Assembly (NCBI GenBank): GCA_902563335.1
Contig: CACEWU010000003.1
Span: 1-64,000 of the forward strand
Origin: an uncultured Prochlorococcus sp.
GTDB lineage: Bacteria; Cyanobacteriota; Cyanobacteriia; PCC-6307; Cyanobiaceae
Length of the DNA: 64,000 nt
Reading direction: 5' to 3'
Shown: piece by piece, positions 10,100 to 17,850 of the stretch
Layout: the number at the start of each line of letters is the position of its first letter
Numbering within the stretch: position 1 is the stretch's first letter
The notes under the pieces: generated by a model
Database searches by the model: none
What the model was told of the DNA's origin: nothing
The model's input: the letters and a program-made list of their open reading frames with translations, nothing else
Translations under genes and position numbers: made by a program

Positions 10100-10426
10100 C
10101 TAAGTTCCTAGTTTAATCAGTGAAATCAACAATTAAACTTGAAGAAAATGTGATGATTTTAAGGAAAGTGTGATATTGCTTACTCTTCAAGAGATTAATC
10201 ACAATGATGCAGATTACTAATATACTCAAAGGTTAGTGAAAATGCCGGTTACACAAATGAAAGATGTGATTAATTAGCCGCATTATTTTTAAAGTAAAAT
10301 AATTATGAAACTATTTCCCATCCCATGAGCAAAAAGAATATGCATATTTATATTCAGAAAATGCTGAACACTATTGCTACCAGTGGCTGAATTTTTCAGA
10401 GCAGAAGAACGATTAGACTTTGAGTT

Positions 10427-10542
10427 AAAGGTTTCAATGGAGAACAGCCATTGGAGGTAACGGGGAAAAGCGGTGAAAATCCGCTACTGTCCCGCAGCTG
10501 TGAAGTATCGATATTCATCGATATTAGTCAGAAGGCCCGCCT
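10427..10542 (+). promoter_or_regulatory. Cobalamin (B12) riboswitch-like leader upstream of hupE
   Basis: GGTTTCAATGG...CCATTGGAGGTAACGGGGAAAAGCGGTGAAAATCCGCTACTGTCCCGCAGCTGTGAAG...GTCAGAAGGCCCGCCTT matches the B12-box core and downstream elements. Confidence 0.88.
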
Positions 10543-10570
10543 TATTTCACAATTCGACGAGGATCGACCT

Positions 10571-11203
10571 ATGACCGTTCCCTTCTTAGGGCGTAAGCAT
10601 TTTCTTGCAGTTTTAGTTCCATTATTTGTTTTACTGACTTTTTTAGCTGATCCAGCTTTGGCTCATCATCCCTTTGGGATGGGCGACAGTTCAGAGCTGT
10701 CAGCTTGGCAAGCTCTACTTAGCGGGATCGGGCATCCATTGCTTGGACCTGATCATCTACTTTTCATGCTAGGCATCGCCCTTGTGGGACTCAAAAGAAA
10801 CAAGAAATGGCTTTTGCCTCTTTTATCTCTTGGATTAGCCGGAAGTGCATTGGTGCAGTTGCTCCCCTTACCTGATGTAGTAACTCCCTGGGCAGAAGCA
10901 CTTGTCTCTTTGTCTTTGGCAATAGAAGGCTTAATTGTTCTGAATCGTTTGAGCGCAAAATGGCTCTTGCCAATGTTTGCTTTCCACGGCTATTTGCTTG
11001 GGAGCACAATTGTTGGTGCGGAACCTACACTTCTTATAGGTTATTTTTCAGGTCTCCTTCTTGCGCAAGGATCTTTACTTTTACTTGTAACAGCAGCGTC
11101 TCAAAAAGTGATCACTAGCCTTGGTAATAATAGTCGCAATTTGTTTGCTGGTATCTGGATAGGTATAGGACTTGCTTTCTCTTGGGTAGCTCTCGTCCCA
11201 TAA
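10571..11203 (+). CDS. hupE: HupE/UreJ-family membrane protein, putative cobalt/nickel transporter
   Basis: Signal-like N-terminus, HHPFGMGDSSELSAWQALLSGIGHPLLGPDHLLFMLGIALVGL (HupE signature), several TM helices. The ATG at 10571 is preferred over the tracked 10451 start, which lies in the riboswitch. Confidence 0.88.
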   Translation: MTVPFLGRKHFLAVLVPLFVLLTFLADPALAHHPFGMGDSSELSAWQALLSGIGHPLLGPDHLLFMLGIALVGLKRNKKWLLPLLSLGLAGSALVQLLPLPDVVTPWAEALVSLSLAIEGLIVLNRLSAKWLLPMFAFHGYLLGSTIVGAEPTLLIGYFSGLLLAQGSLLLLVTAASQKVITSLGNNSRNLFAGIWIGIGLAFSWVALVP

Positions 11204-11389
11204 CACCCCTAAGGAAGATATGCATTCGAAATAGAAGGATATAATTGCAAAGCGTCATTAGTTTTACACTGGACTCTATTCATAGAACTTCCGATAAATT
11301 TATATAGAATGATCTCAACAATAATATTAAATTGGAGATACAGCTAGTAAATTTTCAATGCTTCTATCAATGCTTTATTGCAAATGAAT

Positions 11390-12184
11390 TTAAGAATCCG
11401 CTAAAGAATTTAAGGTAAGTGCATATTCGTATATTGAGAAGTCTAGTCTATTTAAATCTTCGAGCTTTCGAATTACTTTAGGGCTTAGGTCTTGTCTTGA
11501 CATTGCGTTAGATTTTCCAGTATGAGGATTTTCGGAAGATTTATTAATGAAAGGGACCTCTCCTTGATAATTTATGCCAAGCCAATTACTAAGACTGCTT
11601 ACTGATTTAGGGAAGTTTTCAGTAATTCCGATGACAGAGCATTGTTCTAGTGTGTTTTTAGCTGTTTTCAAAATGTCTTCAGGTTGAATATACTTGGCAG
11701 CTAAGGCAACTAATTCTTGTAAACCATTATATGGACCACCTTTTGTTTTTAACTTATTTAAGTCTAGATTAATACCAAGTACACGTGCCTGATAATTAGA
11801 AAGAAATTGTTTGATACCTGGCTCTTCCAAGCAAGCCTCAACATCACCTTCTAGTCTTTTGATTCTTTCATGAAGTGTAGTTCCAGGATTTCTAATATGT
11901 GCATTTATTTGTGAAATCATTCGATCTATTGGATTTCTTAGAAGAGTAATGATATCTAGATTTTTAATTTGTTCCTTCTCTAGTAGTGTTGGTAAGCCTA
12001 ATCCAAAATGACCATGATAATAGTTATAAGTTCTAATTTTTTCGTTAGGAAGCACTAGCAATTCTGGAATTAGTCCAGCAGGACAACGTTCTTTAATATG
12101 AAAAGAAAGTTCTGCAATTTTATTAAAGGAGCTACCAGCAGTTTTATTGATATGCAGAAAATAAATTTTTTTTGCTGACCTCAT
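11390..12184 (-). CDS. Sulfotransferase-family protein
   Basis: KIYFLHINKTAGSSFNKIAE (PAPS-binding-like loop) and LDIITLLRNPIDRMISQ (3'-phosphate-binding-like motif). Confidence 0.75.
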   Translation of the reverse strand: MRSAKKIYFLHINKTAGSSFNKIAELSFHIKERCPAGLIPELLVLPNEKIRTYNYYHGHFGLGLPTLLEKEQIKNLDIITLLRNPIDRMISQINAHIRNPGTTLHERIKRLEGDVEACLEEPGIKQFLSNYQARVLGINLDLNKLKTKGGPYNGLQELVALAAKYIQPEDILKTAKNTLEQCSVIGITENFPKSVSSLSNWLGINYQGEVPFINKSSENPHTGKSNAMSRQDLSPKVIRKLEDLNRLDFSIYEYALTLNSLADS

Positions 12185-12465: not shown

Positions 12466-12861
12466 ATGAGAATGCTCACTTGGGATGAGTTCAACTCTTG
12501 CGTTGAAAGTATTACTTCTTCATGTAAGAACCGAGCTTTTTGTGGCGTTTATGGATTCCCTCGAGGTGGGCTTTGTTTGGCAGTTGCATTGAGTCATTCG
12601 TTGAATATTCCTTTGCTCAATCAATTAGAACCCAGTTCTCTTGTAGTTGATGATGTTTATGAATCAGGTAAGACTTTAAGTAGAGTTTTGAATTTTCCTG
12701 ACATTACTACTTTTGTTTGGTTGAGTAAAGTGAAACCTATCTGGTGGAATACTGTTGAGCTCAGTGATCCCAATGAATGGCTTGTATTTCCTTGGGAGAA
12801 TCAAGAACGTGCATATTTAGATGAAAAACTTTATCGAAATGCTCGTGGATTATCTAAATGA
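12466..12861 (+). CDS. Phosphoribosyltransferase-like protein
   Basis: GVYGFPRGGLCLAVALSHSLNIPLL and LVVDDVYESGKTL (PRPP-loop-like) followed by a short hood region. Confidence 0.72.
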   Translation: MRMLTWDEFNSCVESITSSCKNRAFCGVYGFPRGGLCLAVALSHSLNIPLLNQLEPSSLVVDDVYESGKTLSRVLNFPDITTFVWLSKVKPIWWNTVELSDPNEWLVFPWENQERAYLDEKLYRNARGLSK

Positions 12862-13322
12862 CTAAAAAAATCATCTATCTAGCTTCACCATATGGGTTCT
12901 CTAGGCAATGGAGTGAAAGACTTATCCCTCAATTTGTAACTGCCCTAGAAGGAATAGGTTTGAAGGTTTGGGAGCCTTTTGCACGTAATAGTCAGGTTGA
13001 TTTCTCACGTAGTGGCTGGGCTTACAACGTTGCAATTGCTGATTTGCAAGACGTTAAAGATGCGCATGCAATTTTTGCAATTGTTAATGGTAATCCTCCG
13101 GATGAAGGTGTGATGGTTGAACTTGGAGTTGCTATTGCATTGAAGAAACCCACTTTTCTATTTAGAGATGATTTTAGACGATGTACTGATTCAACAGATT
13201 ATCCATTAAATTTGATGATTTTTTCTGGACTGCCTGCTATTGGATGGGAAGACTATTTCTATACATCAATAGATGAAATTGGGAATAAAGATAAGGCCTT
13301 ATTTCGTTGGGTAGACTCTTAA
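12858..13322 (+). CDS. Nucleoside 2-deoxyribosyltransferase-family protein
   Basis: KKIIYLASPYGFSRQW, DAHAIFAIVNGNPPDEGVMVELGVAIALKKPTFLFRDDFRR (NDT motifs). Overlaps the upstream gene by 4 nt (ATGA). Confidence 0.82.
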   Translation: MTKKIIYLASPYGFSRQWSERLIPQFVTALEGIGLKVWEPFARNSQVDFSRSGWAYNVAIADLQDVKDAHAIFAIVNGNPPDEGVMVELGVAIALKKPTFLFRDDFRRCTDSTDYPLNLMIFSGLPAIGWEDYFYTSIDEIGNKDKALFRWVDS

Positions 13323-17266: not shown

Positions 17267-17559
17267 TCTCTTGCTATTATTGACCTCTTAGCTGAAAATC
17301 TGTTTTTATTAGAATTAACTTTTCAAGTTAAAATTAGATTCACACCTCCCCCCTTGAGAGACCAACTTTTTCTCAATACAATTTATCAATGAATATATGT
17401 TTAGTTTCTTCACTGATTTATTTGTATAGGGTTTTCCCCTGAGCCTTCAACATGATTTTTACTAAAGATTGAACTTTGCCTGATAACAAAAGATGCGTAG
17501 TTTTCTTCTTAATGCACAACCTTTCTTTCTAATAGGATCTTTGTATATAAAGAGGGGAC

Positions 17560-17850
17560 CTTCCAGTCCCCCTGAGTCATTTGGGTGATAAGGCTGACCT
17601 CACCCCATCTCCTTTAGTAAGTTCAGGCAGCAACAGGGGCTGTCTGACGGGAGAAACGAACGATGTTGTTCGCTGTTACGGTTTTGCTCTTACCGAGCAG
17701 GCTTCAGTCACCCTCCTCATGCCCCGTCGAAACCATTGCAGCCCCAGCTAAAAATTATGGAAATGGAGCTGAGCGGAATCGAACCGCTGTCCGAAACACT
17801 GGTGTGAATCACCTAGTTCATTAGATAATGAACTTCTACATTCTTGCAGT
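17560..17850 (-). ncRNA. ssrA: Circularly permuted two-piece tmRNA (5' mRNA-like piece and 3' acceptor piece); outer bounds approximate
   Basis: Minus strand has GGGGCTGCAATGGTTTCGACGGGGC (5' end at 17745), tag ORF GCGAACAACATCGTTCGTTTCTCCCGTCAGACAGCCCCTGTTGCTGCCTGA (17623-17673, ANNIVRFSRQTAPVAA), and an upstream acceptor piece GGACAGCGGTTCGATTCCGCTCAGCTCCA. Confidence 0.92.

Follow-up and report, generated by a model that had tools for sequence, protein, structure and literature searches.

We analysed a 64,000-nucleotide stretch of an uncultured Prochlorococcus sp., referred to below as the window. The locus studied consists of a cobalamin riboswitch followed, on the same strand, by hupE. 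The features are listed in Table 1. The hupE product scores 64.1 bits against the Pfam HupE_UreJ profile (cut-off 23, E-value 1.5e-17) and carries the family signature, HPXXGXDH, as HPLLGPDH. Hence, it belongs to the HupE/UreJ permeases. The closest homologue, at 91% identity, is from the Prochlorococcus single cell AG-409-N21. Other close relatives are from Prochlorococcus and then from Synechococcus/Cyanobium. A sulfotransferase-family gene (11390-12184, minus strand) is convergent with hupE. Beyond it are overlapping genes (12466-13322, plus strand) for a weakly phosphoribosyltransferase-like protein and a nucleoside 2-deoxyribosyltransferase. Further along, a cyanobacterial permuted tmRNA (17555-17849, minus strand) was recognised at 308.6 bits.

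Table 1 Features of the riboswitch and hupE in window coordinates
Feature	Position	Strand	Basis or detail
Cobalamin riboswitch	10411..10558	+	full RF00174 match, cmscan
Aptamer core	10430..10541	+	covariation across 56 distinct leaders
P1/P3	GGU 10430-10432 and GGG 10462-10464, paired with CCC-GCC 10536-10541	+	
P2	10433-10440/10448-10455	+	
P4	10470-10473/10481-10484	+	
P5 hairpin CUG-UCCCG-CAG	10487..10497	+	loop L5 = 10490-10494
P6	10498-10500/10529-10531	+	
P7	10505-10512/10517-10524	+	
B12 box AGUCAGAAGGCCCGCC	10526..10541	+	sequence; aligned to RF00174 consensus
P13 hairpin UCGA-CGAGGA-UCGA, expression platform	10554..10567	+	conserved, covarying stem
hupE, 210-aa HupE/UreJ permease	10571..11203	+	PF04955; ATG start, TAA stop

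The riboswitch was detected by running cmscan on the 64-kb window. The match to RF00174 scored 64.7 bits, where the gathering score is 31.5. It is untruncated, covering model positions 1-189, with an E-value of 1.1e-13 for the 64-kb window. This score exceeds the gathering cut-off about twofold, and is the highest in a set comprising the window's own genome and 59 listed relatives. The match is also the only one to RF00174 in the genome's own assembly (1.25 Mb, estimated completeness 65%). A sequence-only reading had proposed a riboswitch here from a B12-box core, GGTGAAAATCCGCTACTGTCCCGCAGCTGTGA, and a downstream string, GTCAGAAGGCCCGCC. Both are present in the window, the latter at 10527-10541, and the Rfam cobalamin covariance model agrees. 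The observation of a cobalamin riboswitch before hupE is confirmed. Two related families were considered and rejected. The AdoCbl riboswitch model (RF01482) gave 29.7 bits against a cut-off of 50, and AdoCbl-II (RF01689) gave 33.3 bits against 36.5. Weak Rfam matches to CyVA-1 and snoR113 fell under the cut-off and were discarded.

The aptamer structure was assessed using an alignment of 56 distinct leaders from hupE loci, including that of the window. When the helices in Table 1 were imposed on this alignment, 95.8% of cells were paired. Changes on both sides were evident for 21 of the 41 pairs, and none of 500 shuffles reached as high a count. Pairing fell to 29-53% if partners were shifted by 1-3 columns, a control biased in favour of the structure because this was taken from the window sequence. 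Covariation was seen in most aptamer helices. Hence, the RF00174 core, comprising helices P2-P7 and the B12 box, is present with covariation support. None of the 56 aligned leaders departs from UCCCG in loop L5. Thermodynamic folding gave no useful information when applied to the leader by itself; the result was not unusual (z -1.27) and the P13 hairpin was absent from the minimum-energy structure.

The open reading frame containing hupE extends back to 10427, and the first codon in it that resembles a start, TTG at 10451, falls in the aptamer. This bears out an earlier remark that the start of the tracked open reading frame lies inside the RNA. In orthologues, which share up to 91% identity, the alignment begins at the residue encoded at 10571. 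In addition, relatives differ in the length of the spacer separating the B12 box from P13 (8 to 17 nt), and these differences are not in multiples of three. We conclude that what lies upstream of 10571 is RNA rather than protein-coding sequence. The B12 box ends 29 nt before the ATG, close to the 30 nt estimated previously.

The only conserved element downstream of the B12 box is the P13 hairpin. A hairpin scan detected P13 in 55 of 60 hupE relatives as well as in the window. The stem occurs as UCGA/UCGA, ACGA/UCGU and CCGG/CCGG, as expected for a covarying helix. Its six-nucleotide loop carries the Shine-Dalgarno sequence AGGA (10560-10563), positioned 7 nt before the hupE ATG in the window. 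The loop is CGAGGA in 46 cases and CGCGGA in 10. All of L5 can pair with this loop, written CG-A-GGA, in the order U-A, C-G, C-G, bulged base, C-G, G-C. The predicted bulge (A in 46, C in 10) is the only variable position of the P13 loop, and the five bases complementary to L5 are constant. On both strands of the window there are 2938 hairpins with a stem of 4 and a loop of 6. Just one, P13, has the full complement of L5.

A similar arrangement is known from the env8 riboswitch (PDB 4FRN). There, L5 forms a kissing interaction with the P13 loop, which houses the ribosome binding site, and cobalamin dependence arises from a bulge of 1-2 nt in the kissing helix (PMC10907184). The window RNA has the same small P13 loop containing the ribosome binding site, complementarity of that loop to L5 (UCCCG against CG-A-GGA) and a short bulge. 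The likeness covers the loop design, and Rfam places the window RNA in RF00174. Because the L5 and P13 pairs are invariant in picocyanobacteria, the family itself offers no covariation evidence for the kissing helix. In more distant cyanobacteria the L5/P13 arrangement is found again, with loops such as CGAGGUA. In one distant riboswitch (L029) the kissing pairs show compensatory change, with UGCCG as L5 and CGUCGCA as the loop opposite. The evidence that L5 and P13 can pair is their complementarity, the A/C variation at the bulge, a single compensatory pair in a distant riboswitch, and the analogy with env8.

We surveyed the linkage of riboswitch and transporter in the window's own genome and 36 relatives of the same picocyanobacterial family. 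For 32 of the 34 RF00174 matches listed, a HupE match followed 39-163 nt downstream on the same strand. There were two exceptions. In genome G036 the contig stops 154 bases past the riboswitch. In genome G030 (L125:738-2013) the riboswitch precedes a gene resembling sirohydrochlorin chelatase, and this is the sole family copy clearly located away from hupE. In the family surveyed, the riboswitch is therefore almost confined to hupE. Together with the RF00174 and PF04955 matches, the linkage favours the earlier proposal that the riboswitch controls the HupE-type transporter beside it.

We consider it highly probable that the 5' leader of hupE is a cobamide riboswitch exerting translational feedback, via L5 and P13, on a probable cobalt importer. 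The proposed mechanism is as follows. When intracellular cobamide is low, the P13 loop and its Shine-Dalgarno sequence would be free and hupE would be translated. Cobamide bound at the four-way junction would cause L5 to kiss the P13 loop, with the A bulged. The Shine-Dalgarno sequence would then be hidden and translation of the importer would stop. The pathway that consumes cobalt would thus feed back, through its end product, on cobalt uptake. Binding of a cobamide by the window RNA, and the resulting repression, are what we infer from these features.

The mode of control and the transported metal both have alternatives. Ligand-repressed translation is the favoured reading, since the Shine-Dalgarno sequence is in a covarying P13 complementary to L5 and a terminator is absent. 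The sequence-only reading had also suggested translational control, on the basis of spacing; the conclusion stands, and the hairpin with its complementarity to L5 is a stronger reason than the spacing. It is unlikely that transcription termination or mRNA stability, and not translation initiation, is the main target of the riboswitch. A terminator role has been postulated for a cobalamin riboswitch of Synechococcus PCC 7002, and in Anabaena cobalt starvation alters transcript levels (PMC10878165). However, the region 10150-11350, which includes the interval between aptamer and hupE, yielded no terminator-like site, and the only conserved structure downstream of the aptamer is the short Shine-Dalgarno hairpin. 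We would give even less credence to a riboswitch that is decayed, or to a chance likeness with hupE expressed constitutively; this is very improbable. Decay does occur. Two Prochlorococcus leaders (L062 and L069) keep the aptamer and have P13 loops of CGAAGA and CGAAAA, with loss of both the Shine-Dalgarno sequence and the kissing bases, and at least one lineage is without the element. By contrast, the window retains the conserved core of the aptamer intact, together with complete L5/P13 complementarity, and the RF00174 score is that of the best-matching copy.

A real switch might instead control a nickel importer, serving for example Ni-superoxide dismutase or urease. Many HupE/UreJ proteins are encoded in nickel-enzyme clusters (PMC7689651; PMC4284471). 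Outside this setting, members of the family are considered nickel carriers. For the present gene this is unlikely. Nickel enzymes are not among the nearest neighbours of hupE in the window, a cobamide sensor would be a sensible means of controlling cobalt uptake, and a separate protein, SodT, has been proposed for nickel in marine cyanobacteria (PMC4284471). Furthermore, a hupE mutant of Synechocystis is rescued by cobalt or methionine, which is the basis for assigning cobalt transport to HupE (PMC7689651; PMC4284471). The Synechocystis PCC 6803 protein (slr2135) is of the HupE/UreJ family, like that of the window, and its cobalt uptake is deduced from the mutant rescue. In a tree with slr2135 outside its sample, HupE proteins linked to picocyanobacterial riboswitches form a divergent clade apart from other cyanobacterial HupE. 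By analogy, we conclude that HupE here probably imports cobalt.

The sequence-only reading had described the host as B12-synthesising. In support, the genome's own assembly encodes four corrin-pathway methyltransferases, of the CobA, CbiL/CobI, CbiF/CobM and CbiH/CobJ types; for the last two, the CbiF and CbiH families gave the highest scores, below curated cut-offs when searched as domain pieces. With these enzymes encoded, synthesis of a cobamide is plausible, and completeness of the pathway is an extrapolation from a 65%-complete assembly. A GATase_3 (PF07685) match that might have signalled CbiA/CobQ was identified as PurQ by NCBIfam and discounted. Neither MetH (PF02965, Met_synt_B12) nor a B12-dependent ribonucleotide reductase (TIGR02505) was found in this incomplete assembly, which is weak evidence given the incompleteness. 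Cyanobacteria mostly make pseudocobalamin (PMC8123684). It would then be the ligand in nature. Failure to bind pseudocobalamin is known for at least one riboswitch elsewhere.

The kind of riboswitch and its pairing with hupE are already known, and the value of our analysis is in confirmation and detail. According to a 2014 review, marine cyanobacteria have a hupE governed by a B12-responsive riboswitch (PMC4284471). The gene family, RNA class and position are the same as in the window, which provides another copy, from a partial Prochlorococcus genome, with no substantive difference. B12 elements before hupE have also been reported from metagenomes (PMC2211319). A cobalamin riboswitch was also proposed in a 2005 screen for picocyanobacterial non-coding RNAs, where cluster 101 was conserved in three of the four marine picocyanobacterial genomes compared (PMC1242208); in the passages found this is a prediction, with downstream gene and expression platform unnamed. 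Two small additions are made here: a kissing-loop anatomy that holds over 56 leaders, and a separate hupE lineage, free of the riboswitch, as a contrast. The anatomy points to bases worth mutating. Open-ocean waters contain little cobalt, and among the important producers of pseudocobalamin are the picocyanobacteria. Tying cobalt import to the cobamide level is a plausible control point.

A broader interpretation can be offered tentatively. The picocyanobacterial cobalamin riboswitch may be a near-dedicated switch for cobalt import that reads pseudocobalamin, with a separate hupE lineage, beside a QueD-like gene, that is switch-free and regulated differently. Apart from the one chelatase-like gene, no riboswitch copies were seen on the B12 pathway in the family. 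Six switch-free hupE copies, from other genomes of the family, form a supported separate clade in the tree (L136:2394-3597 in genome G031, and L129-L133). In G031, the sole clade genome examined in full, hupE follows a gene for a QueD-like 6-carboxytetrahydropterin synthase. Upstream sequences of further clade members look similar. A permissive cmscan found no riboswitch remnants upstream of switch-free hupE copies in several genomes, and the leader had no match in related phage records. Loss of the element is also evident in AG-363-N16 (L089), inside the riboswitch-bearing Prochlorococcus clade. Conversely, AG-409-N21 has two hupE loci (L061 and L092), each with its own cobalamin riboswitch.
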